From Aquilaria yunnanensis (lineage: Eukaryota > Streptophyta > Magnoliopsida > Malvales > Thymelaeaceae): a DNA stretch of 64,000 nucleotides. Position numbers and translations under genes: made by a program. Under the pieces are notes generated by a model that saw only the letters and a program-made list of their open reading frames with translations, did not search any database and had not been told where the DNA came from. The stretch spans positions 116,925,413 through 116,989,412 of the forward strand of contig CM077593.1 of the NCBI GenBank assembly GCA_039654915.1. The letters run 5' to 3'. Numbering within the stretch: position 1 is the first letter of the stretch; every line of letters begins with the position of its first letter. Shown piece after piece: positions 38,561 through 63,393 of the stretch.

Positions 38561-38590
38561 TTCCTGGGATTCAAAAACAAAAACTAAAGG

Positions 38591-38666: not shown

Positions 38667-38799
38667 AATTAATTCCTAACTATTTTAATTTTTATTTGTT
38701 TATTATTGTTATTATTACTAACCTTTTTTTTTTTTTGTTATTAGCAACTAACAACTAACTTGCTAATTTTTACTAACCTTTATTATTATTGTTGTTAAT

Positions 38800-41631: not shown

Positions 41632-41904
41632 GTATAAAATTCTATACAAATTAATTTCCAAAAATCCGCATTCAACTAATTCAGTTAAAATTTCTAGTTT
41701 GAAAATTAACTGAATTTTTTTTAAGCAAAGTAAAACAAAATTAAAATCAACTAAGGTGCCAATTTTGGGCGCTATAACAATATTGTTTTAGCGTAACCGT
41801 ACTCCCGATCCCCGAACTCTCGCAGACCATATTTTAAGGTATCCAATCGACCTGAGCGAAAACCGATTGGTGGCGACTCCAGAAAACCCGACGTTGCCAC
41901 AGCT

Positions 41905-41922
41905 TGGCGACTCCACTGGGGA
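41905..41922 (+). other. Primer-binding site, element B
   Basis: TGGCGACTCCACTGGGGA, three bases after the LTR end. It begins TGG as expected for pairing with the CCA end of a tRNA. From memory this sequence is the tRNA-Arg type site seen in Ogre-like elements. Confidence 0.85.
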
Positions 41923-42527
41923 GTCGACGTTAGTGAGTCGAGCCTAAAGTTGATTTGTTTTTATTTACTTTGCTTTACTATTATGTGGATTTATATATTA
42001 TATTTATTTAAGTAAACATGCATAATGCATTCACAAAATGAAGCTCTATACCCGAGCTTCCTTAAATCAAACACGATTCTTTCTAAGCGGAATTGGTGTT
42101 GCTGTCCTTGTGAGGCCACGGTCTCCAAGCCTTCACCGGTTTCAAAGTAGCGAAGTAGTGTATTGCCTTCTGAGACGGTTAGTCTCTGCATGGGCCCACG
42201 AAAAGCTACGACTCGAATTAATCCATTCCTTACATAAACCCTAGAGGGTAAGGAATCGGGCCGTCACTATGATTCAGTGACGGGATTCGGGAACTATCCC
42301 TTGCCTTTTTGATAAACCACCTTCTGCATGTAGAATTCCTTACTCCACCTTAGAACCAGCCATTAAGAATTTCCCATGCCTCGGTTCCCATTTCCATAGG
42401 TTTTGTTTTATCTATATGTTTGTATGATCCTATGTGTTATTTTTTTTTACTAACTCTATTTTTCCTTATTTTTCCGGCATATACATTTCATCATTAAAGA
42501 TAAGTATTTGGTGAAAGAACTATTATC
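41923..42527. other. 5' leader of element B
   Basis: About 600 bases to ORF1. It contains the conserved hairpin CCGTCACT (42261-42268) / AGTGACGG (42276-42283), extended by GAATC/GATTC across a GGG bulge. A 68-codon ORF at 42038-42244 is present in both elements but has no recognisable features, and the antisense frame is open as well, so I do not call it a gene. Confidence 0.5.
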
Positions 42528-44222: not shown

Positions 44223-44410
44223 ACAAACCTTTTGCTGAATGTAATTGAGAAATTCCATTATAGTTTTTCTTTCACCAAGTATTTACAATATTCATGCATG
44301 CATCCATCACATCAATCATACACACATAGAATCTAATAAAATAAATATTCCTTTAAAAGGGTAAAATTGGACCTCAACACCGATATTCAACTCGACTCCA
44401 AACAAGATTA

Positions 44411-47400: not shown

Positions 47401-47722
47401 AAGACATGATAAAATGAAGGCAATAGCTGAAAAGAGAGAAAAGAGGATTGCACGATTAACGGGGCATCCTCTCCAGGAAAGAAATCTGGATATCCCTGAA
47501 ATCACCGAAACGTTCGTGAGTGGTGGTCTCATTCCAAAAAATGACAATGAAGGCAAGCTGACTATCAACATCAACAAGTCTTTTGAAAGTCTTTCTATTC
47601 AGGCAATCATCAGCGATTCACCTGAAGAGGAGGAGCTTGTTCAACCTTGTGGCCCACGGGATGTGCTGAACAATTGGGAGGCGATAGAACTGCCTGTTAT
47701 AATCGAAAGCTTTCCAAAGTAA
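44411..47722 (+). CDS. gag-pro: Gag-protease polyprotein with G-patch
   Basis: 1103 aa. A coiled N-terminus (1-110) is followed by a Retrotrans_gag-type capsid region at about 140-290 (ALQWYLSQGPRNIKTW, FKEYAQRWRDLAAQV). An N/P-rich repeat NRPNxYPP lies at 345-377. Cys/His clusters are C439-X2-H-X5-H-X4-C453 and C539-X2-H-X4-H-X4-C552; the second resembles a modified zinc knuckle. The retropepsin site is I-D796-N-G with LLGRPW at 867-872. DNG instead of the usual DSG/DTG may alter activity, though both elements share it. A G-patch at about 951-995 (GYSPGLGLGQ, GKYGLGF) could bind RNA. The last codon overlaps an intron donor that leads into pol. Confidence 0.94.
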   Translation: MAEQAEGRLMEMESKIESMSEQMRQLMELIKGKATQVPIKEVQDPTYPPGFTPQRVSVQENLFQESGPSASVHLKQDTVQEEKKTLPKEEAESQKLETIEKRLRAIEGGTIFGSLSVDDLCLVPDVVIPSDFKVPDFVKYDGTSDPITHITLFLRRLQPLTKDEKVWIALFQESLTKSALQWYLSQGPRNIKTWNDLAQAFIGNYKHVMDLAPDRQTLQNMEKKKLETFKEYAQRWRDLAAQVQPPMTEREMVTLFVQTLKYPYYDKLIGNAATNFSDVVMSGERIEHGIRTGKITESFSDPMKRGGPSRRKDEEIQQIGRGRGIPFVGTVATGPRLSYSVNKPNYYPTNRPNDYPPNRPNDYLPNRPNNYPPNRPNQLRPPVPTPPVPAPRPREIFAPIPMTYTELYPKLIESQLIRPIPTRPLEPPYPRWYDPNINCPYHDGTVGHGLENCIALKRIVQQLIESKWLDFSDEPNVTHNPLPPHQAKPVNMMEEYWPMKKTVNNIITPLKHVYSCLVKEGIIIGKSSGNKEVEDEEWCNFHNSKSHSIQECPEFRKSLQSLMDSSQIIVFMSDKEDDVNVIIKEQEVNIMPRPLVIPISKSALKPLRIQVPKPFPYKSDKTVPWNYGYTSNITSTPLEVGGMTRSGRCYSPEQMNKLQQEKNVTDPANGPINTSKEQEMPRAVTDEQATEFLKLIKQSEYSIVEQLNRLPAKISILSLLLSSDAHREALLKVLNKAYVEQDISVNNFDHLVNNITAQNLITFTDNEIPAEGRGHSKALHISIKYKDRIMARVLIDNGSALNVMPLETLHKIGLDPSYLNNSHIVVRAFDGTKRDVVGEIELPIGIGPCLFHITFQVMDICPSYTCLLGRPWIHMAGAIPSSLHQKMKFIIEGKIITVFAEEDILLSRPADAQYVEVNENIPDCSFRSFEIVNAAYVSEYGEEPIPSISKTSRMVAKLMIKGGYSPGLGLGQDLQGITEPLKITTNEGKYGLGFTPTRHDKMKAIAEKREKRIARLTGHPLQERNLDIPEITETFVSGGLIPKNDNEGKLTININKSFESLSIQAIISDSPEEEELVQPCGPRDVLNNWEAIELPVIIESFPK

Positions 47723-47919
47723 TCTAATAGTAAAAACCTCCTAAAGAAAGGTTCAATCAATAGGGTGTAGTCTTTGTTTAAGTGAACCTTTTAGTTATTG
47801 CTTTTTATTCCAATAAAGTTGTGATTTATGCACATTGTAAATAAAGTACCAGTTTGCATCCATCTCATTCGTGCCATTTTTTTTTTTTCTTCTCTTTCTT
47901 TTCTCTCTGGATAATGCAG
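47719..47919 (+). other. Predicted intron joining gag-pro to pol, element B
   Basis: Donor AAA|GTAATC, acceptor ATAATGCAG|ACCC, with a ~35-base T/C tract before it. Splicing removes the gag-pro stop codon (47720-47722), completes a Lys codon across the junction and continues without stops through ten codons into the pol ATG at 47951, in frame. Ogre elements are known to have such an intron between protease and RT. Unspliced RNA would yield Gag-pro and genomic RNA, spliced RNA the full Gag-Pro-Pol. Confidence 0.78.
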
Positions 47920-47950
47920 ACCCAAAACTCTCTTTGATGACAATGAAAGA

Positions 47951-50900
47951 ATGAACTTTGATAATCCTGTAAACACTACCGACTCGGATGACGAAGATCT
48001 TCAAGTATCTCCTGAGCTATTAAAAATGATTGAGCGAGATGAAAAAGAAAGAGCAACAAGTCAAGAACCAACTGAGGTATTCAACCTGGGAGACAGTCAG
48101 GATGTAAAAGAAGTCAAGATTGGCACTTTATTCCCTCCTGAAGAAAAAGAAGAATTAGTCCATTTATTGAAAGAATATGTGGATGTGTTTGCTTGGTCAT
48201 ACCAAGATATGCCTGGCCTAAGCTCAGACATAGTACTACACAAAATACCCTTGAAACCTGGGGCGAAGCCTGTCAGACAAAAATTACGAAGATTAAAGCC
48301 GGATCTAATCTTAAGAGTGAAAGATGAAATTCGAAAGCTGTGGGATGCAGGATTCCTTGGGGTCGCTGAATATACAGAATGGGTGGTTAACATTGTTCCA
48401 GTCGAAAAGAAAGAAAGCGGGAAACTAAGAGTTTGTCAGGACTACCGGCCATTGAACGAAGCCAGTCCTAAAGATAACTTCCCACTTCCTCACATTGATA
48501 CGCTGGTGGATAATACCGCAGGAAACTCCTATTTTTCCTTCATGGATGGCTTCTCTGGATACAATCAAATCAAACTTGATCCAGATGATATGATAAAAAC
48601 TGCCTTTATAACCCTTTGGGGTACCTTCTACTACAAGGTGATGCCTTTTGGGTTAAAGAATGCTGGTGCTACATATCAAAGAGCCATGGTTGCATTATTC
48701 CATGACATGATGCATAAAGAAATTGAAGTATATGTAGACGACATGATCGCCAAAACTTTCACTGCTAAGGGGCATCTAAAAGTGCTAAGAAAACTATTCG
48801 ATAGACTTCGCAAATATCAACTGAAGTTGAATCCTGCCAAATGTATTTTTGGAGCCTCTTCAGGAAAGTTATTGGGTTTCATGGTCAGCAAGGATGGGAT
48901 TCGAGTTGACCCGAGTAAAGTCAAAGCAATACAAGAAATGCAACCCCCGAAGACTCCAAAACAAGTAAGAAGTTTCATGGGCAGAATCAACTTCATAGCA
49001 AGGTTCATTTCACAATTGACATCCAAGTGTGAACCTCTTTTCAAATCACTGAAGAAGAACAATCCGATCGAGTGGAATAACGAATGCCAAGAAGCATTCG
49101 AGAAAATCAAGCAATATCTATCAAATCCACCAGTCTTGGTACCACCCCGATCTGGAGAATCGTTGATTCTATATTTATCCATACAGGATTCTTCATTAGG
49201 ATCCGTATTGGGTCAACGTGATGAGACAGGCAAGAAAGAGCACGCAATTTACTATTTGAGCAAGAAGCTTACCACATATGAAGCGAAATACTCAATAGTA
49301 GAAAAGTCCTGTTGTGCCCTTGCATGGGTAGCACACCGACTACGACACTACATGCTCAACAACACCACATTGCTAATCTCCAAGACTGATCCCATTAAGT
49401 ACATTTTTGAGAAACCAGCTTTATCAGGCAGGATCGCAAAATGGCAAATGCTGTTGTCTGAATACGACATACAGTATGTCACCCAAAAGGCTGTAAAAGG
49501 GAGTGTGATTGCTGAATATCTGGCTGATAGAGCATTGGATGATTATGAGCCAATGAAAATGGAGTTTCCTGATGGAGATATAATGACGATAGAACAGGAA
49601 GTCTCTAAAGATGATGAAACATGGAAAATGGCATTCGATGGAGCATCTAATGCTTTGGGACAAGGGATTGGAGCCATACTCATCTCTCCAAGTGGAGAGC
49701 AATTCCCTCTTACAGCAAAAATTACATTTCCTTGTACCAACAATATAGTAGAGTATGAGGCATGTGCTATGGGACTCCAAATGGCACTGGAATTGAAAGT
49801 GCGAGATCTCCGAGTTTATGGGGATTCCGCATTAGTCATATATCAAATCAACGGAGAATGGGAGACAAGGGATTCAAAATTGATCCCTTACCAAAAGCTC
49901 ATACTAGACTTGGCTCGAAAATTCAACAGTATAAGCTTCCATCATCTTCCAAGGGAAGATAATCAAATACCGGATGCTTTAGCTACTTTGGCTGTTATGT
50001 ACAAGATCAGTGACCCCGAGCATACTCCTGTGTTCGAGATGAGAATAATAGATTCTCCAGCTTATTGCATGAGCATCGAAGAAGAATTGGATGGAAAGCC
50101 TTGGTATCACGATATCAAGAAATACCTCAAAGAAAGAGTATATCCACCAGAAGTATCAGAAAATGACAAGAAATTTCTACGAAGATTGTCAATGGGTTTT
50201 CTTTTAAACCTAGACATACTTTACAAGAAAACCCCAGACTCGATGCTACTTCGCTGTGTAGATACTCATGAAGCACGAAAGATCATGGAAGAAGTTCATT
50301 CTGGAATATGTGGAGCACACACTAGTGGTCATACCATGGCAAGACAAATAATGAGGGCTGGTTACTATTGGCTCACATTGGAAAGTGATTGCGTCAATCA
50401 CGTAAGAAAATGTCACAAATGCCAAATATATGCCAACAAGATCCAAGCTCCACCTGTTCCTCTTAATGTAACAGCAATACCTTGGCCTTTTGCCATGTGG
50501 GGAATCGATGTTATTGGAGCGATTACCCCTAAAGCTTCCAATGGTCACAAATTCATCCTAGTTGCAATTGACTACTTTACTAAATGGGTAGAAGCTGTGT
50601 CTTATGCAAGCGTAACTCAAAAGGTGGTATGCCGGTTCATTAAGAAAGAAATCATTTGTCGCTATGGACCGCCAGAGTGTATCATCTCAGACAATGCCAC
50701 GAACCTGAATAATGCAATGATGCAGACTTTGTGCCAGCAATTCAAAATCAAGCATCTCAATTCAGCACCTTATCGACCGATGATGAATGGTGCAGTAGAA
50801 GCGGCCAATAAAAATATCAAGAGAATTGTTGAAAAGATGATCGTCACTTACAAGGACTGGCATGAGATGTTACCTTTTGCACTACATGCTTATAGAACTT

Positions 50901-51349
50901 CTACCCGTACTTCTACTGGAGCAACACCTTTTTCTCTGGTATACGGTATGGAGGCTGTATTGCCCATCGAAGTTGAAATTCCTTCATTAAGGGTACTAAT
51001 GGATACTCAATTAGGAGAAGCAGAATGGGTCAAAGCTAGATACGAGCAATTAAATCTAATTGATGAAAGAAGAATGATAGCCCTCTGCCATGGGCAACTT
51101 TATCAAAGAAGGATGATTCGTGCTTACAACAAAAAGGTTCGCCCACGACAATTTCACGAAGGTGACATAGTGCTCAAGAAAATTTTACCCATGCAACATG
51201 ATTCAAGAGGAAAATGGACACCAAATTATGACGGGCCATATGTCGTGAAGAAAGCATTTTCAGGAGGGGCACTAATTCTGACAGAAATGGATGGACGAGA
51301 ATTACCGAAGCCAGTAAATTCGGATGCAGTAAAGAAATACTTTGCATAA
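47951..51349 (+). CDS. pol: Pol polyprotein: RT, RNase H, second RNase H, integrase
   Basis: 1132 aa. RT spans about 110-350 with VCQDYRPLN (161-169), MPFGLKNAGATYQR (231-244) and the catalytic YVDD (261-264). A first, Ty3-type RNase H at about 385-515 looks degenerate (QDSS where an acidic-Ala-Ser site is usual). A second RNase H at 555-690 keeps the acidic set D563, E603, D625 and D675; two RNase H domains are the mark of the Tat branch. Integrase: zinc domain H783/H790/C821/C824, core D853, D914, E950 (D,D-35-E). No chromodomain is seen. Translation probably begins as a fusion with Gag-pro after splicing; the ATG at 47951 is only the first in the ORF. Confidence 0.96.
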   Translation: MNFDNPVNTTDSDDEDLQVSPELLKMIERDEKERATSQEPTEVFNLGDSQDVKEVKIGTLFPPEEKEELVHLLKEYVDVFAWSYQDMPGLSSDIVLHKIPLKPGAKPVRQKLRRLKPDLILRVKDEIRKLWDAGFLGVAEYTEWVVNIVPVEKKESGKLRVCQDYRPLNEASPKDNFPLPHIDTLVDNTAGNSYFSFMDGFSGYNQIKLDPDDMIKTAFITLWGTFYYKVMPFGLKNAGATYQRAMVALFHDMMHKEIEVYVDDMIAKTFTAKGHLKVLRKLFDRLRKYQLKLNPAKCIFGASSGKLLGFMVSKDGIRVDPSKVKAIQEMQPPKTPKQVRSFMGRINFIARFISQLTSKCEPLFKSLKKNNPIEWNNECQEAFEKIKQYLSNPPVLVPPRSGESLILYLSIQDSSLGSVLGQRDETGKKEHAIYYLSKKLTTYEAKYSIVEKSCCALAWVAHRLRHYMLNNTTLLISKTDPIKYIFEKPALSGRIAKWQMLLSEYDIQYVTQKAVKGSVIAEYLADRALDDYEPMKMEFPDGDIMTIEQEVSKDDETWKMAFDGASNALGQGIGAILISPSGEQFPLTAKITFPCTNNIVEYEACAMGLQMALELKVRDLRVYGDSALVIYQINGEWETRDSKLIPYQKLILDLARKFNSISFHHLPREDNQIPDALATLAVMYKISDPEHTPVFEMRIIDSPAYCMSIEEELDGKPWYHDIKKYLKERVYPPEVSENDKKFLRRLSMGFLLNLDILYKKTPDSMLLRCVDTHEARKIMEEVHSGICGAHTSGHTMARQIMRAGYYWLTLESDCVNHVRKCHKCQIYANKIQAPPVPLNVTAIPWPFAMWGIDVIGAITPKASNGHKFILVAIDYFTKWVEAVSYASVTQKVVCRFIKKEIICRYGPPECIISDNATNLNNAMMQTLCQQFKIKHLNSAPYRPMMNGAVEAANKNIKRIVEKMIVTYKDWHEMLPFALHAYRTSTRTSTGATPFSLVYGMEAVLPIEVEIPSLRVLMDTQLGEAEWVKARYEQLNLIDERRMIALCHGQLYQRRMIRAYNKKVRPRQFHEGDIVLKKILPMQHDSRGKWTPNYDGPYVVKKAFSGGALILTEMDGRELPKPVNSDAVKKYFA

Positions 51350-52660
51350 TGAAGAAATTTTCGAACAGAAGGGGAGAAGTGGATACAGGGTTACCAAAGT
51401 TTATTTGATCAAAGTTGTCAAAGAGAGCTTTCTTCCCTTACACTTTCATTATCTATCTGTACCTAAGATTTTCATATTCTTTTACCCATAAATAAAAGCC
51501 AATTCTCTTTAACTTACCTTAGATTCTCACGTTCAAAATGCTAAAGTCGCTTCTATCCAGTTCTTTTCCTTCAAATCTCACATTCCTACTAGCCTTAAGT
51601 GTGCAATAAATTGTGACTTTTGAAGGAAGAATAGTAATAATTAAAACTTAGAAAAAAAAAACAAAGACCGTAGATTACTTTGATAAGCTTTGTGAATTAA
51701 AACAGGTAAGATTGAGGTCCTGCTTTGCGAGCAGCACAGAACATAGGCTAACAAAGAAGAAGGAGTAACAAATCTTTGGGAGATAGCCTTGGTGGTAGCC
51801 TGAATGATCATTTCAGAAGTCTTAACATGTCTATGTCAGCAGGAAAGAATCATGCTCACGAATATTTCAACAGGGACAATTATCCAGAGAAGCATAAAAT
51901 ATGAGGCGGGCATTAAAGAAAATTGAGGTCAAAATTCAAAAATAAGGCAAGGAAAGAGGATTTTTGAACAGAGTTGGGCTTTTGAGACAATGGACAACAG
52001 CTGGAAAGCATAAAGAGATTCAATAATAGTCCGAGAAGGAAATCACAAAGAAGATCCAGTAAAGTAAAGCAAAGACATGAAGAGCTAGATTCAAAAAAAA
52101 AAAAAAAAAAAAAAAAAAAAACATCAATTACACATGCCTTGCATTCATGCATTTCACATCATGCATGCATGGCTTTTACATAACAGGGATCAAATGAAAA
52201 GCATGTCCGCAGCATGATTGCAGCAGTATAAGCTGAGATCTTAATGACATCAGCTCTTACTAATTGGACGCATAGCTAATACGCTGGACCCAGCCCCATC
52301 AGGAATCCAAGGATAAAGCATACAATATCGTCAAAAGCCTGGCAATTGAGGCTACACCTAAAAGAACAGAATTGATGCCAGCTTAGCAGCATCCAAGATG
52401 AGTGATAGCTATCGTCAAAGATAAGGCAGACATCAAGAAATATTGTCGTTGAAAATTCGTCAAAAGCGGACAATGGATTCAATAATCAAGGACTGAATCG
52501 ACGTCAGCTGGATGGAATATCTATCACATCAAAATAAAGTAGGATTCACTTTTCCGGTTAAGCGGCGGATACGGTACTCCGTGACTCTCAAGTCGGTTCT
52601 CTCAGTTGCCCATAATAACTGATCATTTCCTCCCTCCTTTCTTTTACTTTCTCCTAGAAA
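51350..52660. other. Spacer between pol and CRP1, element B
   Basis: About 1.3 kb without a supportable gene. It contains a run of 29 A (52093-52121; 12 in element A) and CATGCATG motifs shortly after it. The last 120 bases (TTTTCCGGTTAAGCGGCGG, 52551-52569, onward) recur as a shorter version before CRP3, so this is where the CRP leader begins. Confidence 0.55.
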
Positions 52661-53209
52661 ATGGATCCTACTTTTTCTGCCTTGCGAAAATATTTTCCTT
52701 CTCTCCCAATGAACATCCTCAAAAAGATCTACCAAGTTCGCTGTGAACGATTAAGAGCTCTGATGCATAAAGGAATCCCTGAAGATGTGCGGTGGTTAAT
52801 TGAAGCTAAGGTTCGTCTGGCAGGTGAAATCCCAGAGGCATTTGTGTCTCACATGCCTGGTGTAGGCAAAAGCTCTTATGCCAAAAAACGAAGAGCGAGG
52901 AGACTAGGCGTCTGTCATAAATGCGGACGCTGGACCTGTAATACTAAATGTCGTTCTTTAGGGATGATCTCTGATAATCGAGAAGATAAAATACGATTCA
53001 TTAAGAATGGCCTGAGTAAGGACTCATTGGATGATCTCCAATTGACTCTTGAGACGCATTCTTGTGGATCCGTGCAACGTGAACTTCTCGATTTATGGAG
53101 CATTTTTCATGAAGAACGAGAACGATACACTCCCGGGAATCTGACATTAAACGACCCTATTTGTCAGCTTGTAAGAAAACTGGATGGGAAGCAAATCCTC
53201 GACTCATAG
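52661..53209 (+). CDS. CRP1, cysteine-rich virus-like nucleic-acid-binding protein
   Basis: 182 aa, first of four tandem paralogs, and the most diverged. It has a basic N-terminal helix-like region, then GVGKSSYAKKRRARRLGVC with the cluster C85-X2-C-X4-C-X3-C97, then an acidic/basic C-terminal half ending VRKLDGKQILDS. The combination of G-x-G-K/R-S-x-Y-A-x-K/R-R-R-A followed by clustered cysteines is what I recognise from carlavirus/allexivirus-type cysteine-rich proteins, which bind nucleic acid and act as RNA-silencing suppressors. Those viral proteins are usually shorter. No obvious TATAAAT upstream. A plant zinc-finger origin is the main alternative. Confidence 0.65.
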   Translation: MDPTFSALRKYFPSLPMNILKKIYQVRCERLRALMHKGIPEDVRWLIEAKVRLAGEIPEAFVSHMPGVGKSSYAKKRRARRLGVCHKCGRWTCNTKCRSLGMISDNREDKIRFIKNGLSKDSLDDLQLTLETHSCGSVQRELLDLWSIFHEERERYTPGNLTLNDPICQLVRKLDGKQILDS

Positions 53210-53347
53210 AAGCCATTAATCCCGTTACTGGACGTAAAACCAGTGGAAGATGTGAGCCACAGTCACAATCACTGTACATACAATTTATCATATTTAAAAT
53301 TTTCCATTTTTCTTTTAATAATGTATTTGCTCCCGTAAGTGTAATCG

Positions 53348-53375
53348 ACACGTTATCCATTTCATCGCTATAAAT
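53348..53375 (+). promoter_or_regulatory. CRP2 promoter: ACACGTTATCC box and TATA box
   Basis: ACACGTTATCC at 53348-53358 and TATAAAT at 53369-53375, 87 bases before the CRP2 ATG, followed by a T/C-rich leader. The same pair in the same spacing precedes CRP3, and a variant precedes CRP4. Confidence 0.6.
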
Positions 53376-53455
53376 GCATGTTCTTCCAGTCGGTTATCTA
53401 AGTTTCCTTCAATAACTGATTCATTTCCCTCTTCTCTCAAATTCTTCTCTCATCA

Positions 53456-54004
53456 ATGGATTCTACTCTTTCTGCACTGCGAAAATACTTTCCTTCCTTT
53501 CCAATAAAAGTCCTTAAAAAGATCTACCTTGCTAGATGTGAAAGAATCAGAGTTTTTACACGCAAAGGCATTCCCGATAATGTGCAGTGGATAATTGAAG
53601 CTAAGGTCCGTCTGGCGGGTGAAGTTCCAGATGCATTTATGCCCCGCATGCCCGGTTTAGGTAAAAGCCGTTATGCCAAAAGGCGAAGAGCAAAGAGACT
53701 AGGCGTGTGTTATAAATGTGGGCGATGGAATTGTATTACTAAATGTCGCTCTTTAGGATACATCTCCATAAATCGTGAAGATAAAAGAAAATTCATTAAG
53801 AATGGCCTGCGTAAGGAATCTCTGGAAGATATCCGAGAGACTCTTGAAACGCATTCTTGTGGAAAAGTGCAAGGTGAAATTATCAGTTTATGGAGGACTT
53901 ACCATAAAGAACGAAACCGTTACAGTCTTGGGAATGTGACTTTAAACGATCCTGTTTGTCAGTTTGTAAGAAAACTGGATGGGAAGCAAATCCCCGACTT
54001 ATAG
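53456..54004 (+). CDS. CRP2, cysteine-rich virus-like nucleic-acid-binding protein
   Basis: 182 aa, 246 bases after CRP1, same strand. Residue positions: conserved start MDSTLSALRKYFPSFP; KGIPDNVQW at 37-45; EAKVRLAGEVP at 48-58; GLGKSRYAKRRRAKRLG at 67-83; cysteines 85, 88, 93 and 97; C-terminal segment RYSLGN..LNDPVCQFVRKL shared by all copies. The arginine-rich stretch could serve as RNA binding and nuclear localisation signal. No transmembrane segment or signal peptide. Start chosen at the first ATG, which follows a T/C-rich leader and is shared by all paralogs. Function is inferred from the motif only. Confidence 0.68.
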   Translation: MDSTLSALRKYFPSFPIKVLKKIYLARCERIRVFTRKGIPDNVQWIIEAKVRLAGEVPDAFMPRMPGLGKSRYAKRRRAKRLGVCYKCGRWNCITKCRSLGYISINREDKRKFIKNGLRKESLEDIRETLETHSCGKVQGEIISLWRTYHKERNRYSLGNVTLNDPVCQFVRKLDGKQIPDL

Positions 54005-54127
54005 ATGGCATTGAAGCCATTACTGGACATAAATCAGGGGAAGATGAGAGCCACGGTCATGATTCCTGTACATATAAGCTGTCATTTGTCTTTTCTTTTA
54101 ATATACTTGTTCCTGTAAGCGTAATTA

Positions 54128-54154
54128 ACACGTTATCCTTTCATCGCTATAAAT
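54128..54154 (+). promoter_or_regulatory. CRP3 promoter: ACACGTTATCC box and TATA box
   Basis: ACACGTTATCC at 54128-54138 and TATAAAT at 54148-54154, 112 bases before the CRP3 ATG. The longer leader contains the GGTTAAGTAGCGGATAC segment also seen in front of CRP1. Confidence 0.6.
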
Positions 54155-54259
54155 GCGTGTTCTTCTTTCCGGTTAAGTAGCGGATACAATACTCTCTGAC
54201 TCTCAGTTTCCTACAATAACTGATTTCTTCATCTCTTCTCTCAAATTCTTCTTTTATCA

Positions 54260-54808
54260 ATGGATTCTACTCTTTCCGCCATGCGAAAATACTTTCCTTC
54301 CATCCCAATAAATGTTCTTAAAATGATTTACCAAGCTAGATGTGAAAGGATTAGAGTCTTTATGCACAAAGGCATTCCTGACAATGTGCGGTGGCTAATT
54401 GAAGCTAAGGTTCGTTCAGCTGGTGAAGTTCCAGAAGCGTTCTTTCCCCGTATGCCCGGCTTTGGTAAAAGCGCTTATGCCAAAAAGCGAAGAGCAAAGA
54501 GGCTTGGTGTCTGTCATAAATGTGGACGATGGAATTGTAATACTAAATGTCGCTTTTTAGGATACATCTCCAGAAATCATGAAGATAAAAGAAAATTCAT
54601 CAAGAATGGCCTGCGTAAGGAATCTTTGGATGATATCCTATTAACTTTTGAAACACATTCTTGTGAAATAGTGCAATGGGAAATTATGGATTTATGGTGG
54701 ACTTTCCGTAAAGAACAGGATCGTTACAGTCTTGGAAATCTAACTTTTAATGACCCTGTTTGCCAGTTTGTGAGAAAACTGGATGGGAAGCAAATCCCCG
54801 ACTTATAG
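54260..54808 (+). CDS. CRP3, cysteine-rich virus-like nucleic-acid-binding protein
   Basis: 182 aa. Differs from CRP2 mainly in the first 60 residues and in the linker after the finger; shares GFGKSAYAKKRRAKRLG with CRP4, so copies 3 and 4 are the most recent duplicates. The cysteine cluster is CHKCGRWNCNTKC. The duplication unit (gene plus promoter) is about 0.8 kb. The 3' flank after the stop is also conserved between copies, and its third-copy version (about 54860-54930) is recognisable in the LOG promoter array. Confidence 0.68.
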   Translation: MDSTLSAMRKYFPSIPINVLKMIYQARCERIRVFMHKGIPDNVRWLIEAKVRSAGEVPEAFFPRMPGFGKSAYAKKRRAKRLGVCHKCGRWNCNTKCRFLGYISRNHEDKRKFIKNGLRKESLDDILLTFETHSCEIVQWEIMDLWWTFRKEQDRYSLGNLTFNDPVCQFVRKLDGKQIPDL

Positions 54809-54935
54809 AAGGCATTGAAGCCGTTACTAGACATAAATCAGTGGAAGATGAGAGCCACAGTCATGATTACTGTACATATAAGCTGTCATTTGTCTTTTCT
54901 TTTGACAATAATGTACTTGCTTCTGTAAGTGTAAT

Positions 54936-54965
54936 AAACGCATTATCCCTTTCGTCACTATAAAT
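54936..54965 (+). promoter_or_regulatory. CRP4 promoter: diverged ACGCATTATCC box and TATA box
   Basis: A diverged box (AACGCATTATCC) followed by TATAAAT at 54959-54965, 66 bases before the CRP4 ATG. Same layout as before CRP2 and CRP3, with a shorter leader. Confidence 0.5.
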
Positions 54966-55024
54966 ATGTGTTAGTTATGTTCGTTTCCTACAATCACTAA
55001 TTTCTTTCTTTGCCTCCTTCATCA

Positions 55025-55573
55025 ATGGAGTCTTCTCTTTCCGCCCTACGAAAGTATTTTCCTTCCTTCCCAATAAATGTTCTTAAAAAGATTTATCAAG
55101 CTAGATGTGAACGATTCAGAGTATTTATGCACAAAGGCATTCCTGATAATGTGCGGTGGCTAATTGAAGCTAAGGTTCGTTCAGCTGGTGAAGTTCCCGA
55201 AGCGTTCTTTCCCCGTATGCCCGGCTTTGGTAAAAGCGCTTATGCCAAAAAAAGAAGAGCAAAGAGGCTAGGCGTTTGTCATAATTGTGGATGGTGGATT
55301 TGCGGCAATAAATGTCGTGCTCCAGGAGTGATCACCAGAAATCGTAATGATAGAATAAGATTCATTAAGAATGGCTTGCGTAAGGAATCTCTAGAAGATA
55401 TTCGAGAGGTTCTTGAAGCGCATTCTTGTGGAATAGTGCAATTTGAGGTTGTTGGATTATGGATAATTTTCCAAAAAGAACGAGATCGTTACAGTCTTGG
55501 GAATCTGACCCTAAACGACCCTGTTTGCCAGTTTGTGAGAAAGCTAGATGAGATGCAAATCACCGATTCATAG
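55025..55573 (+). CDS. CRP4, cysteine-rich virus-like nucleic-acid-binding protein, intact in element B
   Basis: 182 aa from the ATG at 55025, which aligns with the starts of CRP1-3 (MESSLSALRKYFPSFP). The frame is open five codons further up (55010), but those codons belong to the leader. The finger is CHNCGWWICGNKC, more diverged than the others, with a hydrophobic WWIC centre. The element A copy has a premature stop after the finger. The gene ends 600 bases before LOG and its downstream DNA grades into the LOG promoter array. Confidence 0.66.
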   Translation: MESSLSALRKYFPSFPINVLKKIYQARCERFRVFMHKGIPDNVRWLIEAKVRSAGEVPEAFFPRMPGFGKSAYAKKRRAKRLGVCHNCGWWICGNKCRAPGVITRNRNDRIRFIKNGLRKESLEDIREVLEAHSCGIVQFEVVGLWIIFQKERDRYSLGNLTLNDPVCQFVRKLDEMQITDS

Positions 55574-55618
55574 AAAACATTGAAGCCATTACTGGACGCA
55601 AAGCCAGTGGAAGACGAG

Positions 55619-56140
55619 GATCAAAGTCATGATTACTGTACGTGCTAGCTGTCGCTTTTGAAATTTTCCTCCCCTTTTGGTAATAATGTATCCACTCCTG
55701 ACGTGAACCAAAGTCACGATTACTGTACGTACTAGCTGTCGCTTTTGAAATTTTCCTCCCCTTTTGGTAATAATGTATCCACTCCTGACGTGAACCAAAG
55801 TCACGATTACTGTACGTACTAGCTGTCGCTTTTGAAATTTTCCTCCCCTTTGGCAATAATGTACCCACTCCTGACATAAGATACAGTTATGATTACTGTA
55901 TATAGCTGCCACTTTTTAAAATTTTCCTTCTCTTCCAACAATCACGTACCTACTCCTGACGTAAGCTACAGTAGTGACTACTGTACATGCTAGCAGCTAT
56001 TTTGAAAATTTTCCTCCTCTTTTAACGATAGTGTACCCATACCTGACCAAAGTCATACTCGTGACTACTGTGAATAGCTGGCAATAATGTATCCATTCTT
56101 GAAAATAAAATTATTGCCTTATCTCTTCATCTCTATAAAT
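55619..56140 (+). promoter_or_regulatory. LOG promoter: five-copy ~86-bp array with TGACGT boxes and TATA
   Basis: Units start at 55623, 55710, 55797, 55883, 55968 and (partial) 56049, spacing 87, 87, 86, 85 and 81. Units contain a GATTACTGTAC box and GAAATTTTCCTCC. TGACGT, the core of as-1/TGA-bZIP sites, lies at 55699, 55786 and 55957, with decayed versions in the others. A perfect 19-nt dyad (TACAGTAGT, G, ACTACTGTA) is at 55967-55985. TATAAAT at 56134-56140 lies about 34 bases before the LOG ATG, so the 5' leader would be very short. Confidence 0.65.
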
Positions 56141-56173
56141 ATATCCTCTTTTCTCACAAAGGTAAGGATAGGA

Positions 56174-56803
56174 ATGGAGAAAACCCCAACTCGTAAATCC
56201 CGAAGTATTTGTGTATTTTCTGGGGCTTTTCCTGGAAAAGATGAAGAGTATTTAAAAGCAGCCAACCATTTGGGAAGAGTATTAGCTGAGCGAAAAATAC
56301 ATTTAGTTTATGGAGGAGGTAGTGTCGGATTAATGGGAGGTGTAGCATCAGCAGCATCTCTAGGAGGAAGTCAAGTTCTGGGTATTATCCCTGGACCTCT
56401 GAAATTTATTTCTGGGGGCACGATTGGAGAAGAATTAGTGGTTAAAAATTTGCAAGAGCGTGTGTTACAAATGCTTTTAAATGCTGATGCTTTTATCGCT
56501 CTACCAGGTGGTTTTGGCACATTGGGAGAAGTCTTTCAAATTGCTTCCATGGCCCAACTTAATTTGCATAAGAAACCCATTGGGCTTTTGAATGTTAACA
56601 ATTTCTTTACAGGTCTGATAGCTTTTATGGATTATGCTATGCAGAAGAATTTCATATCAAGAGTGGCACGGCGAATCATAATATCCGCAACAACTGCTGA
56701 AGAATTGCTAGATAAAATACAAGCTTTTGTTCCTGAACCAGATCCAGCAATGATTCAGATAGACTGGACACGACAGTCTTTCCCGACCAGTTCACTCCCA
56801 TAA
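56174..56803 (+). CDS. LOG: LOG: cytokinin riboside 5'-monophosphate phosphoribohydrolase, captured host gene
   Basis: 209 aa, a typical LOG length. LOG enzymes cut ribose 5-phosphate from cytokinin nucleotides and release active free-base cytokinin in the cytosol. Landmarks: SICVFSGAFPGKDEEYLKAA at 11-30, a Rossmann-type nucleotide-binding VYGGGSVGLMGG at 45-56, R96, and PGGFGTLGE at 111-119 with E119; family catalytic residues are an Arg and the Glu of PGGxGTxxE at these spots. AQLNLHKKPIGLLNVNNFF follows. It is clearly a plant-type LOG and intronless, while host LOG genes have several introns, so it was probably acquired through RNA. FSG replaces the usual FCG near the N-terminus. Activity is inferred from intact motifs. 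The start follows family alignment, not the longer frame from 56087. Confidence 0.9.
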   Translation: MEKTPTRKSRSICVFSGAFPGKDEEYLKAANHLGRVLAERKIHLVYGGGSVGLMGGVASAASLGGSQVLGIIPGPLKFISGGTIGEELVVKNLQERVLQMLLNADAFIALPGGFGTLGEVFQIASMAQLNLHKKPIGLLNVNNFFTGLIAFMDYAMQKNFISRVARRIIISATTAEELLDKIQAFVPEPDPAMIQIDWTRQSFPTSSLP

Positions 56804-57366
56804 TGGTCCTCTACTCACCCTGTTGAAGTATTGTGGAAGAAAGAAGCTATCTGATCCGTTTTTCTTGTCCTTTAGTTTTATTATCAGCATTTTCTTTCGC
56901 GTTTCAGTTTTTCTTTTCAGGGAATTTCTTTTTTTTATATATAAGATAGTTTCGTCCATGCTGATATTAAAACCATGCGACAATGCCTTTAGGTTGGAAT
57001 GGCTGAGTAAAGAGTAATTTTTATTACTCTTGAGACGCATCCTATTAGGTCTACTAGGCATAACATTTTGGAGTAGTTAAGCTTTAACCTTATTTGGATG
57101 ACATATCTCACAAGGGAATCTATATTTACTGAAGAAAATATTAGATGAACCTTGGATATTGATTCCAAACATCCGTTCCCTTTACATAATTTGTCAGTGT
57201 TATTGTCATCATCAAGATTCACTCATCTTATCGAAGTTTAAATTTTTGCACTCACCTATTATGAAAATTCACACTTTCGAAGAAAATTATTCCAATTTCA
57301 ATTGCTTTCATATAAATTTCGCTCGAGGTCCTAAGGAAAGCTCTTTAGCCTCAAAATCAAACAATC
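56804..57366. other. Spacer between LOG and tandem repeats, element B
   Basis: About 560 bases, collinear with element A, presumably the LOG 3' untranslated region plus older element sequence. Its end (about 57320-57350) holds a single GAGGTCCTAAGGA..CCTC hairpin that looks like the ancestor of the arrays that follow. Confidence 0.5.
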
Positions 57367-57512
57367 CGGGGTTTTAAGGATGGAACCTTTGCCTCGAGAT
57401 CAATCAATCAATTTGAGGTTTTAAGGATGGAACCTTTGCCTCGACATCAATCAATCAATCCGAGGTTTTAAGGATGGAACCTTTGCCTCGACATCAATCA
57501 TTCAGTCCATCT
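57367..57512 (+). repeat. 47-bp hairpin repeats, element B
   Basis: Three copies with period 47 (GCCTCG at 57391, 57438 and 57485). Each has GAGG..AAGG..CCTT..CCTC stems. The linker (ATCAATCAATCAAT) differs from the A version, which has period 51. Confidence 0.8.
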
Positions 57513-57513
57513 T

Positions 57514-58945
57514 ACAACGATAGAACCTTTCCTATCGTTAGAGGTTCCAAGGACCTTTCCTTAAACCTCAAACAAACAATCAATCATTCAGTCCATCTTA
57601 CAACGATAGAACCTTTCCTATCGTTAGAGGTTCTAAGGACCTTTCCTTAACCTCAAACAAACAATCAATCATTCAGTCCATCTTACAACGATAGAACCTT
57701 TCCTATCGTTAGAGGTTCTAAGGACCTTTCCTTAAACCTCAAACAAACTATCAATCATTCAGTCCATCTTACAACGATAGAACCTTTCCTATCGTTAGAG
57801 GTTCCAAGGACCTTTCCTTAAACCTCAAACAAACAATCAATCATTCAGTCCATCTTACAACGATAGAACCTTTCCTATCGTTAGAGGTTCTAAGGACCTT
57901 TCCTTAACCTCAAACAAACAATCAATCATTCAGTCCATCTTACAACGATAGAACCTTTCCTATCGTTAGAGGTTCTAAGGATCTTTCCTTAAACCTCAAA
58001 CAAACAATCAATCATTCAGTCCATCTTACAACGATAGAACCTTTCCTATCGTTAGAGGTTCCAAGGACCTTTCCTTAAACCTCAAACAAACAATCAATCA
58101 TTCAGTCCATCTTACAACGATAGAACCTTTTCTATCGTTAGAGGTTCCAAGGACCTTTCCTTAAACCTCAAACAAACAATCAATCATTCAGTCCATCTTA
58201 CAACGATAGAACCTTTCCTATCGTTAGAGGTTCTAAGGACCTTTCCTTAAACCTCAAACAAACAATCAATCATTCAGTCCATCTTACAACGATAGAACCT
58301 TTCCTATCGTTAGAGGTTCTAAGGACCTTTCCTTAAACCTCAAACAAACTATCAATCATTCAGTCCATCTTACAACGATAGAACCTTTCCTATCGTTAGA
58401 GGTTCTAAGGATCTTTCCTTAACCTCAAACAAACAATCAATCATTCAGTCCATCTTACAACGATAGAACCTTTCCTATCGTTAGAGGTTCTAAGGATCTT
58501 TCCTTAAACCTCAAACAAACAATCAATCATTCAGTCCATCTTACAACGATAGAACCTTTCCTATCGTTAGAGGTTCTAAGGACCTTTCCTTAAACCTCAA
58601 ACAAACAATCAATCATTCAGTCCATCTTACAACGATAGAACCTTTCCTATCGTTAGAGGTTCTAAGGACCTTTCCTTAAACCTCAAACAAACAATCAATC
58701 ATTCAGTCCATCTTACAACGATAGAACCTTTCCTATCGTTAGAGGTTCTAAGGACCTTTCCTTAAACCTCAAACAAACAATCAATCATTCAGTCCATCTT
58801 ACAACGATAGAACCTTTCCTATCGTTAGAGGTTCTAAGGACCTTTCCTTAACCTCAAACAAACAATCAATCATTCAGTCCATCTTACAACGATAGAACCT
58901 TTCCTATCGTTAGAGGTTCTAAGGACCTTTCCTTAAACCTCAGAG
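57514..58945 (+). repeat. 86-bp hairpin tandem array, element B (about 17 copies)
   Basis: Units of 85-86 bp, nearly identical. Each has stem AACGATAG/CTATCGTT with loop AACCTTTC, then the GAGG..AAGGA..TCCTT..CCTC hairpin, then a CAAACAAACAATCAATCATT linker. Frequent single changes (CTAAGG or CCAAGG; AAACCTC or AACCTC) recur in several units, a sign of unequal exchange within the array. Confidence 0.92.
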
Positions 58946-59034
58946 TTTAGGCGGCGAGAAGGTTTTCAATGCCTAGCTAAGCTGGACGAAATTTGGTAAC
59001 TAACTTTGCATACATCATGTCCCATGAAGCATGC

Positions 59035-59046
59035 AAAGGGGGGCAG
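59035..59046 (+). other. Polypurine tract, element B
   Basis: AAAGGGGGGCAG, ending two bases before the 3' LTR start TGTTGACA, preceded by a T/A-mixed stretch. It is the expected plus-strand priming site. Confidence 0.85.
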
Positions 59047-59047
59047 C

Positions 59048-62000
59048 TGTTGACACCCAATTTCGTCCGGCCATTAAAATAATTTTAAAAAAAAATTAAA
59101 TAAAAAAAATTAAATAAAAAAATGTATTATTATTATTATTGTTATTATTATTACTAAATTTTTTTTTAATTAGTTTAAAATATATATATATATTTTTTTT
59201 AAGATTTGATATATGTGTGTATATGTGTATGTTTGAAAGAAAAAAAGAAAACTCCATAAAAATGACAAAATTTAAAAGTTTGAGGTAAAAATGACAAAAT
59301 TAAGAAGTTTCAGGCAAAATTGACAAATTCTGAAAGTTCCAGGAGCATTTGGCAGTTTGTCACATAAAATTTTGAGCCTGCCGACGTTTTTGGCTCAAAT
59401 TGACAGAAAACGACAAAATTGTCAAAATCAGAAGCTTCAGGAACTTATCCAGAGGCTGAGAGACGTAAAGGACTAAAATTGTCATTTTACCAATTTAAGA
59501 GATAAGTTTGAAATTTTTTATTAATTTATCCGTCCACAGTTCAGCCAAACTCCTTCTATAAATACCCCTCCAAATTCAGTGATGAACACAGAAAAAAATA
59601 GCAAAAAAACTTAGAGCTCCGTTTTAAAAAAAAATAAAATTACAGCCCTTAGCCCCAGCCCTCTTCCCTTCTTCCCCAGAAAGCCAAAACTTTTTTTTCT
59701 TTTCTCTGTTCCGTCTCTCTCTCTCTCTCTCTCTCGCCGTGCCCACCACCGTCGTCCGCCGGCCACCACGCCTCCGCCCAGCCGTCCTGCCGCCGTCGTC
59801 CGGCCGTCCCGCCGCCGTCGCCGTCGTACCCAGCCTGACGTCCGCCGCCGCGCCGTTCCCCTTTTCTTCTTCTCTCCCTGCGCCGGCTGCTGCCCGCCGC
59901 TCCTCCACCGCCCTCCGCTTCGCGCCGTTGCCCCTCCGCCCGTGCTCGCCGTCGCCCTGCGCTTCCGCCCCCACGCCCTTGCGCCCCGTGCCCTCGCCGC
60001 CGCTCGCCTGGCTGCCCCTCCCTCCCCCCACGCCGTCCGTGTCGCGCCTCTTTCCTGGGATTCAAAAACAAAAACTAAAGGGTATAACTCTTGTTTTGTC
60101 TTCTATCTTTTCAATTTCTTTCACTTTGGTCACTAACCTTTTATTTTGTTCTTGCAGAATTAATTCCTAACTATTTTAATTTTTATTTGTTTATTATTGT
60201 TATTATTACTAACCTTTTTTTTTTTTTGTTATTAGCAACTAACAACTAACTTGCTAATTTTTACTAACCTTTATTATTATTGTTGTTAATAATTAATTAA
60301 ATTGTCTAACTTTTATTTTTGTTGTAATTAATTAACTTAATTAAACTTGTCTAACTTTTATTTTTGTTGTAATTAATTAACTTAATTAAACTTGGCTAAC
60401 TTTTATTTTTGTTGTAATTAATTAACTTAATTAAACTTGGCTAACTTTTATTTTTGTTGTAATTAATTAACTTAATTAAACTTGGCTAACTTTTATTTAT
60501 TGTTGTTAATTAATTAACTTAATTAAACTTGGTTAATTTTTATTTATTGTTGTTAATTAATTAACTTAATTAAACTTGGCTAACTTTTATTATTATTGTT
60601 GTTAATAATTAATTAAATTGTCTAACTTTTATTTTTGTTGTAATTAATTAACTTAATTAAACTTGGCTAACTTTTATTTTTGTTGTAATTAATTAACTTA
60701 ATTAAACTTGGCTAACTTTTATTTATTGTTGTTAATTAATTAACTTAATTAAACTTGGCTAATTTTTATTTATTGTTGTTAATTAATTAACTTAATTAAA
60801 CTTGGCTAATTTTTATTTATTGTTGTTAATTAATTAACTTAATTAAACTTGGCTAACTTTTATTTATTGTTGTTAATTAATTAACTTAATTAAACTTGGT
60901 TAATTTTTATTTATTGTTGTTAATTAATTAACTTAATTAAACTTGGCTAACTTTTATTATTGTTGTTAATTAATTAAATTAATTAAATTGTCTAACTTTT
61001 ATTTTTGTTGTAATTAATTAACTTAATTAACTTGACTAACTTTTTATTATTGTTGTTAACCATTAATTTAATTAAACTTGGCTAATTTTTATTATTGTTG
61101 TTAATTAATTTAATCTAACTTTTACTAACCTTTTTTATTGTTATTAATTAACTAATCCAACTAATCTAACTATATTAATTGTGCTAACTTTTATTATTAT
61201 TGTATTATTAAAGTGGATGGCCAAAAAGCCCCACTTTATTAATTGAATTTTTTTATGATTAAAAGATAAAAAAAGGAATTTTATGTGAATAATTTTCTAA
61301 AGGCTAATAAAAATTACTTTTTTTTATTTTGAAACAAAGTTTTTATTCCTTTTAATAAACAAACATAATGAAATAATTCAAAAATAAAATAAATAAATAA
61401 ATAAACATAAAACCATTCTTTTAATACATCTTTAAAATTAATAATTAATGAAATAAAAAAATTTAATTAAAACTCCATGACCAAATGATCCGCCAGGATC
61501 CATGGCTCGGAAATATTTTTAAAATAAAATATATAAATAAATTTTTTTTTTTCTTTATAAAAAATAAAAAAAAAAACTTTAGACTAATATATTAATTATC
61601 TATTAATATATAATTTTTTTAGTTTTCTTTATTAAAAAGAATAAAAAGCGTAAAATTTTTTAGTTAATATTTTTCAATAATATTTTATTTATTTCTTTTA
61701 AAAATATAATTTTTTTTAGTTTTCTTTATTAATAAAAAGAATGAAAAGAATAAAAATTTTGGGTTAATATGTTATTCAGTAATATTTTACTTATTAAAAG
61801 ATATAACTTTTTGTTTCCTTTATAAAAATCTTAATCAAATAATTTCAAAATAATACAAAATAAAACAAAAATAATTGAATTTTCTCTTAAATATTTTTGA
61901 CTTATTGATTAGATATATTTTCAGAAATATAAATTAAAATTAAAAAAAAAAATCTTTCATCAAACAAAGAAGAATATAAAAATAAAAATATCAAGACTTT

Positions 62001-63393
62001 TGTTTTAAAATACATATAAGTTTTCGGTTAAATAATCTTTTATTCCAAAAATAAATTAAATAAATATCAAAACTTTTCTTCTTTTGTTTAAAATTTTTGA
62101 TTCTCTTAATAAAAAAAATAATAATAAAAAAATAATAAAAAATAAAAATTTTTTTAGTTCATGGTATATTGGCTGGAAACTGTCTCGTGCCCGCTTTTGA
62201 GCTGCTTCACCTGGTGAAGAGGGTCTGGCTGAGTAACAACGCCCCGTACCATGATCAAAATTTTTATTTTTAAACTCTTTAATTCTTTTAAATTAACTTC
62301 TTATTAAATAAAAATTAATTATTATTTTTTTTAATTCTTTTATAAATTGAGTAATCCTTTAAAATAATAAATATCTTTCATTAAACAAGAAAAACAAAAA
62401 AAGTAAACAAGAAAAAAAAGAAAGATAAGAAAAATAAAAGAAAGATAAGAAACAAAAATAAAAGAAAGATAAGAAAGAAAAGGAAGATAAAAAAATATAA
62501 AAGAAAAGATAAGATAAGAAAAGAAAGAAAGAAAAGACAAGAAAAATAAAAAAAGATAAGAAAGAAAAATAAAAGAAAGATAAGATAAAGAAAAAAAGGA
62601 AATATAAGAAAAAGAAAAGAAAGATAAAAGAAAGAAAAAGAAAAGCAAAGAAAGAAAGAAAAGAATAAAAAAGAAAGAAAGAAAAGAATAAAAAAGAAAG
62701 AAAAGAAAAGAAATTAAAAGAAATTAAAAAAAAGAAGTAAAAATAAGTAAAAAAAGAAGAAAAAGAAAGAAAGTAAAAAAAGAAGTAAAAAATATAAAGA
62801 TAAATTTTTTAGTTAGTATTAAAAATCATTCATAAACAAAAAGAATTACCATTTAAAAATTAATTTCATAATAATAAGAATTAAATAATTACGATAAATC
62901 AATTTCCATATCCGGATGATCCGGTAGGATCTACGGTTTGGAAAATATCAAACTTTTTAAAATAAACAAATTAAATAAACAGATAAAAATCCATATTTTT
63001 ACAATATGGATAAAATTGTTTAAAATTTCATCAAATTCCGTGTCCAAATGACTCGGCAGAGTCCATGGTTCGGAATCAAAATCTTCCGTGTCCAAATGAC
63101 TCGGCAGAGTCCATGGTTCGGAAGTATAAAATTCTATACAAATTAATTTCCAAAAATCCGCATTCAACTAATTCAGTTAAAATTTCTAGTTTGAAAATTA
63201 ACTGAATTTTTTTTAAGCAAAGTAAAACAAAATTAAAATCAACTAAGGTGCCAATTTTGGGCGCTATAACAATATTGTTTTAGCGTAACCGTACTCCCGA
63301 TCCCCGAACTCTCGCAGACCATATTTTAAGGTATCCAATCGACCTGAGCGAAAACCGATTGGTGGCGACTCCAGAAAACCCGACGTTGCCACA
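59048..63393 (+). mobile_element. 3' LTR of element B (4346 bp)
   Basis: Copy of the 5' LTR at a constant offset of 21491, rising to 21492 after a T-run near 61542-61552. No substitution was noticed by eye. It carries the same TATA box, CCG island, repeats and hairpin modules, and could drive read-through into 63394 onward. Confidence 0.95.

Follow-up and report, generated by a model that had tools for sequence, protein, structure and literature searches.

The window analysed here is a stretch of 64,000 nucleotides of the Aquilaria yunnanensis genome (GCA_039654915.1, contig CM077593.1, positions 116,925,413 to 116,989,412 of the forward strand), and it holds two opposite-strand copies of one ~26 kb long terminal repeat (LTR) retrotransposon family which, to judge from its domain content and layout, is probably Ogre-like (Tat clade). 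Between pol and the 3' LTR this family carries four genes for virus-like cysteine-rich proteins (CRP1 to CRP4) and one gene of the LOG type, related to enzymes that release active cytokinin. The cargo-bearing element, noticed before in a sequence-only reading of the window, is confirmed, and the observation is stronger than that reading could tell: the module recurs across the genome, comparison of copies shows purifying selection on LOG, CRP1 and CRP4, and comparison of paralogues shows it on every CRP. This recently amplified family combines, under selection, two functions that can be recognised, that of a hormone-activating enzyme and that of a suppressor or transcription factor of viral type, and host manipulation by plant transposons thereby becomes directly testable. 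We propose, with chances that we consider evenly balanced, that this is a recent Ogre-like element with a selected CRP-LOG module whose products likely dampen silencing and would raise cytokinin in dividing cells, making new copies heritable. The earlier interpretation, in which the cargo counters host silencing and promotes growth to the benefit of the element, is partly supported overall, and the joint silencing-plus-growth role is one that we infer.

The CRP-LOG module across the genome

The cargo genes of the complete copy (Element 2, + strand) and of the other copy (Element 1, - strand) are the following:

52661..53209, +, CRP1, virus-like zinc-finger protein, 182 aa (ORF and Pfam)
53456..54004, +, CRP2, 182 aa (ORF and Pfam)
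54260..54808, +, CRP3, 182 aa (ORF and Pfam)
55025..55573, +, CRP4, 182 aa (ORF and Pfam)
56087..56803, +, LOG-type gene, 238 aa from the first ATG; an in-frame ATG at 56174, the likely start, gives 209 aa
5630-6178, -, CRP1 of Element 1
4835-5383, -, CRP2 of Element 1
4010-4558, -, CRP3 of Element 1
3245-3793, -, CRP4 of Element 1, with a premature stop
1943-2659, -, LOG of Element 1

Element 2 is a recent insertion, since its LTRs are nearly identical (99.977% over 4346 columns, 99.98% rounded; TG start, CA end) and a 5-bp target duplication, ATGTG, is present on both flanks. Its five cargo genes are all in sense orientation on the + strand between pol and the 3' LTR. According to the sequence-only reading both copies keep four CRP genes and one LOG gene in the same order; the order stands, and the claim of four intact CRPs in both does not, because of the stop in CRP4 of Element 1. 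The accompanying premise that such elements normally have only non-coding DNA in this place has to be dropped, as extra open reading frames (ORFs) are described as common in the Tat clade, the region between pol and the 3' LTR included (PMC6317226, PMC11963269, PMC7264820).

The surrounding genome (842 Mb in 345 contigs) was searched with CRP2 and LOG, which gave 8739 and 3666 first-look candidates respectively, 150 of each being scored; all 150 CRP2 loci and all 150 LOG loci scored had 100% protein identity. Twenty genomic copies were then sampled from the CRP2-identical list. The module was present in all of them, with LOG, CRP1, CRP2 and a CRP4-type sequence in each and a separate CRP3 in 18, two copies (L022 and L027) having a single gene at the CRP3/CRP4 place. 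LOG was open in 18/20, and a one-base length difference was found in CRP1 of one copy. With all 20 sampled copies carrying the module, the cargo is beyond chance, and the expectation that many family members would have it was borne out. The idea of a curiosity limited to two copies is rejected, and so are chance ORFs, the latter by the Pfam matches, conservation and selection. One diverged copy (L037) has three open CRPs and a LOG with one stop. When some matches to a distant CRP used as query (P0009) were set against LOG matches in this genome by eye, the distance from CRP to LOG came to about 1.9, 2.7 or 3.6 kb, values that point to elements with two, three or four CRP units.

For the selection analysis, variants were counted against the window copy and expectations were adjusted to the type of each mutation and its CG/CHG context, using 100000 simulations; L012 (for CRP1), L022 and L026 (CRP2), L022 and L027 (CRP3), and L024 (CRP4) were left out of the counts. 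LOG showed the strongest constraint among the genes tested: the 21 other copies together have 55 distinct variants, of which 10 are nonsynonymous vs. 38.4 expected (0/100000 simulations as low). Nonsynonymous changes are also depleted in CRP1 (20 copies, 16/42 vs. 31.0 expected, 0/100000) and CRP4 (20 copies, 16/39 vs. 27.8 expected, 2/100000). The pol end, taken for comparison in 16 copies, had 20/35 nonsynonymous vs. 26.0 expected, with 1861/100000 simulations as low, and CRP2, being the sampling criterion, had only four variants in 19 copies, one of them nonsynonymous. A synonymous excess arising as a by-product of C-to-T decay is rejected by the context-matched expectations for LOG, CRP1 and CRP4, but not for CRP3. 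The ratio of nonsynonymous to synonymous substitution rates (dN/dS) was 0.12-0.41 among the four CRP paralogues and 0.20-0.49 when the window CRPs were compared with their counterparts in L037 (CRP1 pair: 0.21-0.26 at dS 0.26-0.30; CRP2 pair: 0.43-0.47). Two more LOG copies, L035 and L036, were picked for their closeness to a foreign LOG, and the one from L035 differs by 28 synonymous vs. 5 changed codons, one of these a stop. Constraint of the kind that the sequence-only reading anticipated was thus seen as a depletion of nonsynonymous change in LOG, CRP1 and CRP4 between copies and as a dN/dS below 1 in all CRP pairs compared (0.12-0.49); CRP3 showed no depletion when recent copies were compared.

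Five of the 20 sampled copies (L009, L016, L019, L022, L026) hold the cargo with the pol end absent from the stretch read. In one such element (L031/L019/L034) most LTR pieces are 67-88%, gag about 85%, the post-pol stretch 76% and the cargo 96-97% like those of the window's element, while in another (L029/L009/L033) most LTR pieces are again 67-88% similar and the block from 51894 via the cargo and the tandem array to the first LTR bases is 95-97% similar. The two LTRs of the former are 99.96% identical to each other, those of the latter 99.63%. Recently inserted pol-less elements therefore carry the CRP-LOG module, and the similarity of the cargo block, raised above that of LTRs and gag, indicates exchange by recombination.

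The cargo proteins and their relatives

All four window CRPs exceed the Pfam gathering score for PF01623 (Carla_C4) and PF05515 (Viral_NABP), which bears out the viral kinship read from the sequence, and all four have a CxxCx4Cx3C finger behind a basic stretch. With the CRPs of carla-, allexi- and mandariviruses they share this basic stretch, the CxxC-type zinc finger and both Pfam families; unlike these, they stand in tandem in a retrotransposon and are 182 aa long, and the Pfam matches reach only residues 34-122, with long conserved parts outside. According to PMC12172455, mandari- and allexivirus CRPs have two motifs in common, a nuclear localization signal and a zinc finger, the CRPs of carla- and mandariviruses are silencing suppressors, and p12 of chrysanthemum virus B suppresses weakly and, as a transcription factor, induces hyperplasia. 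Silencing suppression by viral CRPs, and action as a transcription factor by one of them, were thus already published.

A protein search for CRP relatives gave 189 candidates, of which 141 had an E of at most 0.001. Among the best 120 of these, a looser finger pattern (H allowed, or one extra residue before the last position) is present in 109, and some basic cluster in all 120, the latter being a weak test. In a CRP tree of 74 rows, the four window CRPs and two proteins from short contigs form one clade (support 95/96), within which CRP1 and P0002 are sister to CRP2-4 and P0001; as the window CRPs cluster in one clade, their tandem duplication looks particular to this lineage. Structure models of the CRP built from 25 and 117 sequences reached a predicted local distance difference test (pLDDT) score of only 63.5 and 66.7. 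A search of viral models with the low-confidence model of pLDDT 66.7 placed plant-virus RNA silencing suppressors at ranks 1-4 and a plant-virus 15kDa protein at rank 5, at a best E of 0.02, with 0 matches at E <= 0.001 and template modelling (TM) scores by query of 0.19-0.25. A search of IMG/VR for viral relatives of the CRP gave 33 pattern matches, 0 of them confirmed. A second CRP family in the genome was sought with P0009 as query; the 150 matches scored of 8380 candidates had 69-73% identity over nearly the whole query, and no separate family closer to P0009 was among them.

The window LOG matches PF03641 and PF18306 ('SLOG cluster4 family') in Pfam, scores 149.6 bits against TIGR00730 (cut-off 96.35), and keeps the PGGxGTxxE motif as PGGFGTLGE. 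Its nearest solved structures by sequence are Arabidopsis LOG-type proteins, residues 7-202 of 209 aligning with At2g37210 (2a33) and residues 7-189 with At5g11950 (1ydh). It resembles the plant LOG cytokinin riboside monophosphate phosphoribohydrolases in belonging to the TIGR00730 family and in the PGGxGTxxE motif, but differs from the plant LOG1-like proteins in lying on a separate branch of the tree and in its single uninterrupted frame. This tree comprised 46 chosen rows, with LOG1-like as the sole comparison subfamily, and split the window LOG and 28 listed relatives, whose location in retrotransposons is an assumption, from 17 LOG1-like proteins at 100/100.

Of 7998 candidates scored in the LOG protein search, the best 120 were listed (P0121-P0240), and PGGxGTxxE is kept in 108 of them. 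LxLxL is the EAR motif, which recruits TOPLESS. It occurs within the last 20 residues of 99/120 listed relatives, and 93/120 end in LxLxL with two adjacent basic residues shortly before (e.g., KRKLDLTLRL). The best 120 matches to one LOG1-like query, a control that covers that LOG subfamily, had no such tail (0/120); the EAR-like tail thus sets most listed relatives apart from the LOG1-like proteins, although the window LOG itself does not have it. A tailed LOG was sought in this genome with P0141 as query, and the 150 matches scored of 3605 candidates all stop at residue 201 of 215, so that none among them reaches the tail.

Searching plant proteins with both queries, as the sequence-only reading had proposed, returned CRP or LOG relatives in Malvales, Rosales, Sapindales and Lamiales. 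Named sources are Xanthoceras, Acer, Rhamnella and Orobanche among the best 120 of the 141 CRP relatives, and Reevesia (40/120), Xanthoceras, Paulownia, Populus, Diplodiscus and Parasponia among the best 120 LOG relatives, where a Thalictrum LOG of canonical look was also listed. One gene model from Rhamnella (P0090) joins a CRP-like part (56% identity, 98% of the query) with a LOG-like part; our Pfam scan showed its LOG part only, the CRP domain coming from a precomputed list. CRP and LOG matches were also seen on contigs of equal size (8723, 4511, 2128) with compatible source labels, which is a linkage hint only and is weakened by the coincidence of further sizes (905, 1006, 1018) too short for both genes. 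Two other gene models (P0078 from Rhamnella and P0106 from Orobanche minor) fuse a CRP to other sequence, Pfam detecting the CRP alone, and the remainder presumably resembles an Athila-type integrase and protease. A CRP-LOG module in Athila elements as well is a lead. Steinbauerova 2011 reportedly contains two Athila-like elements resembling LOGL4.

YgdH/LOG domains in LTR elements of Citrus and Populus are on record (PMC9289625, citing Steinbauerova 2011); these elements are alike in bringing a LOG-type domain into plant LTR retrotransposons, but are described in PMC9289625 without a selection test or tail motif. A word check of main texts was negative for 'carlavirus' and 'cysteine-rich' in PMC9289625 and for 'cytokinin' and 'zinc' in PMC11963269, and no published report of CRP genes, or of CRP plus LOG, in LTR elements was found in a search that left most subscription journals outside. 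LOG domains in plant LTR elements are therefore already known, and CRPs and the CRP-LOG pairing are apparently unreported, our searches having found none. The extra ORFs of plant LTR retrotransposons are characterised as highly heterogeneous and mostly of unknown role in a survey that counted only ORFs of at least 250 codons (PMC6317226); with this minimum, CRP (182 aa) and LOG (209-238 aa) would have escaped it, a possible reason for the module not having been noticed.

Proposed expression and mode of action, and rival explanations

Candidate expression signals in the cargo region of Element 2 are:

53369..53375, +, TATAAAT, 87 bp upstream of the CRP2 ATG
54148..54154, +, TATAAAT, 112 bp upstream of the CRP3 ATG
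54959..54965, +, TATAAAT, 66 bp upstream of the CRP4 ATG
55622..56047, +, about five 87-bp tandem repeats, some with TGACGT, upstream of LOG; putative promoter array
56134..56140, +, TATAAAT, 40 bp upstream of the second LOG ATG, inside the 238-aa frame

The 17-kb internal region holds seven TATAAAT words, all consensus matches, four of them 40-112 bp upstream of cargo ATGs, and three of these four are not independent because the CRP spacers are related in sequence. No TATA-type word was found within 200 bp upstream of CRP1, and a splice-acceptor-like tract, TTTCTTTTACTTTCTCCTAG, lies directly ahead of its ATG. On these signals, CRP2-4 and LOG would be expressed from their own TATA promoters and CRP1 from spliced RNA. 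The CRPs would then be nuclear, nucleic-acid-binding proteins, acting as suppressors or transcription factors like those of carlaviruses and dampening host silencing of the element, while LOG would free active cytokinin in dividing cells; the element may benefit in that new copies arise in meristem or germ-lineage cells and are inherited. In a bolder form, which we put forward tentatively and expect is rather more likely wrong than right, giant retrotransposons of plants would have evolved a growth module resembling that of a T-DNA, composed of an enzyme of their own clade that activates cytokinin and was ancestrally joined to a nuclear co-repressor (EAR) tail, and of zinc-finger transcription factors that come from viruses and mostly have a promoter each, the cassette being traded between autonomous and pol-less as well as between Tat and Athila elements and reprogramming host cells for transposition and inheritance.

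Several observations weigh against the proposed function. The window LOG scores 98.7 bits with the NCBI LOG equivalog model, under its cut-off of 300, as do its relatives P0141 (117.1 bits) and P0205 (122.7 bits), and for this reason the gene is filed as LOG-type and not as a proven LOG; moreover, without the tail that most listed relatives carry, it may lack a function too. Among the 20 sampled copies LOG has a stop in two (the same early stop in both), CRP3 a stop in two, and CRP4 a stop or frameshift in four, figures that have to be read with the choice by CRP2 identity in mind, which biases CRP2 and the linked genes toward intactness. The LOG of both diverged copies L035 and L037 carries a stop, and that of L036, the weakest case, shows only 16 synonymous vs. 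12 changed codons. For CRP3, 8/11 variants in 19 copies are nonsynonymous vs. 8.2 expected, and recent copies thus give no sign of constraint on it.

LOG belongs to the SLOG superfamily, other members of which remove the base from nucleotide immune signals. It is conceivable, if unlikely, that the module serves counter-defence only, with the CRPs as suppressors and LOG as a metabolic or signal-cleaving enzyme (e.g., removing the base of an immune nucleotide) that has no growth role: viral CRPs are indeed described as silencing suppressors (PMC12172455) and PF18306 also matches the window LOG, but among solved structures this protein is nearest by sequence to Arabidopsis LOG-type proteins, and a signal nucleotide as its substrate is unsupported by these analyses. 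We give a low probability to the LOG clade consisting mainly of nuclear co-repressor recruiters, working through the basic LxLxL tail with enzyme activity secondary and the role absent in this genome. The frequency of the tail (99/120, with the basic-preceded end in 93/120, vs. 0/120 LOG1-like matches) speaks for such recruiters, yet PGGxGTxxE is kept in 108/120 listed relatives, the tailless window LOG is the most strongly constrained gene tested, and, the control spanning the relatives of one LOG1-like query, another host LOG subfamily may have the tail.

Ordinary gene capture, in which the cargo genes are passengers hitchhiking on a recent burst of amplification, is already disfavoured and in our view improbable. 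A very recent amplification (LTRs 99.98% identical, 150/150 scored loci identical) can keep passengers intact for a while, and CRP3 is without constraint between recent copies; on the other hand, nonsynonymous changes are depleted in LOG, CRP1 and CRP4, CRP dN/dS is 0.12-0.49 across paralogues and the diverged copy, and P0090 of Rhamnella has CRP-like and LOG-like parts in one gene model. Nor do we expect much of a reading in which the host profits from the module, or the module works in cis for the copy that carries it, and pol-less elements keep it for that reason: open cargo does occur in copies without the pol end, but the cargo of the two pol-less elements followed further has 95-97% similarity to that of the window's element, against 67-88% for most LTR and gag sequence, and recent recombination suffices to account for this without any gain for the host. 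The joint silencing-and-growth function of the CRP-LOG module is, with about even chances, the best single explanation.

Class and layout of the element

The remaining parts of the two copies are:

37557..63393, +, Element 2, complete Ogre-like LTR retrotransposon, 25.8 kb; target duplication ATGTG at 37552-37556 and 63394-63398
37557..41901, +, 5' LTR of Element 2, TG...CA (end sequences read)
42528..44222, +, ORF1, DUF7745 / plant mobile domain (Pfam)
44411..47722, +, gag-protease ORF, Retrotrans_gag and G-patch (Pfam)
47723..47950, +, gag-pol gap, 228 bp; polypyrimidine tract and GCAG ending at 47919, resembling the Ogre spliced region
47951..51349, +, pol ORF: reverse transcriptase, RNase H, RVT_3 second RNase H, integrase (Pfam)
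57493..58942, +, 86-bp tandem array, 16.9 units, before the 3' LTR (repeat analysis)
59048..63393, +, 3' LTR of Element 2, with the purine-rich tract AAAGGGGGGCAGC directly before it
1..21065, -, Element 1, same family, 3' end beyond the window
7469-10867, -, pol of Element 1
11098-14409, -, gag of Element 1
14598-16292, -, ORF1 of Element 1
about 16918-21065, -, 5' LTR of Element 1

Sequence TTGGCGACTCCACTGGGGA, a candidate primer binding site, begins 2 bases past the 5' LTR of Element 2. ORF1 matches DUF7745 (E 5.2e-56) and, barely over the cut-off of 34.9, the plant mobile domain (35.2 bits). In pol, Pfam domains follow in the order RT_RNaseH (403-505), RVT_3 (570-680), Integrase_H2C2 (770-827) and rve (846-943), and we read RVT_3 as the probable second RNase H (aRH). 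In the account of PMC6317226, an aRH between RNase H (RH) and integrase (INT) is typical of Ogre and Retand, while Ogre typically also has the plant mobile domain (57% of its elements) and a short gap that separates gag-protease from the reverse transcriptase (RT) to INT region (mean 274 bp). The window family is like Ogre in its 5' ORF with the plant mobile domain, long LTRs, tandem repeats ahead of the 3' LTR, and gag-protease and RT-RH-aRH-INT on two ORFs (228 bp apart here), but unlike it in the sense-strand CRP and LOG module between pol and the 3' LTR, which is absent from the description of Ogre in PMC6317226.

Accessory genes in a long region between pol and the 3' LTR are shared with the gene23 ORF of Grande (PMC7264820) and the TRP28 ORF of Retand, which, going by their description, are set apart by being antisense, unlike the window cargo. 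The extra ORFs of Retand are reported as mostly antisense, with no known domain in any sense one (PMC11963269). Ty3/gypsy elements of orchids that encode a 2-ODD m6A demethylase (PMC9289625) likewise combine an Ogre-related Tat element with a host-type enzyme domain, but the enzyme is another one and a single domain, whereas the window family has a gene cluster. The LTRs of Element 2 additionally contain 47-bp tandem arrays (38828-39608 and 60319-61099).

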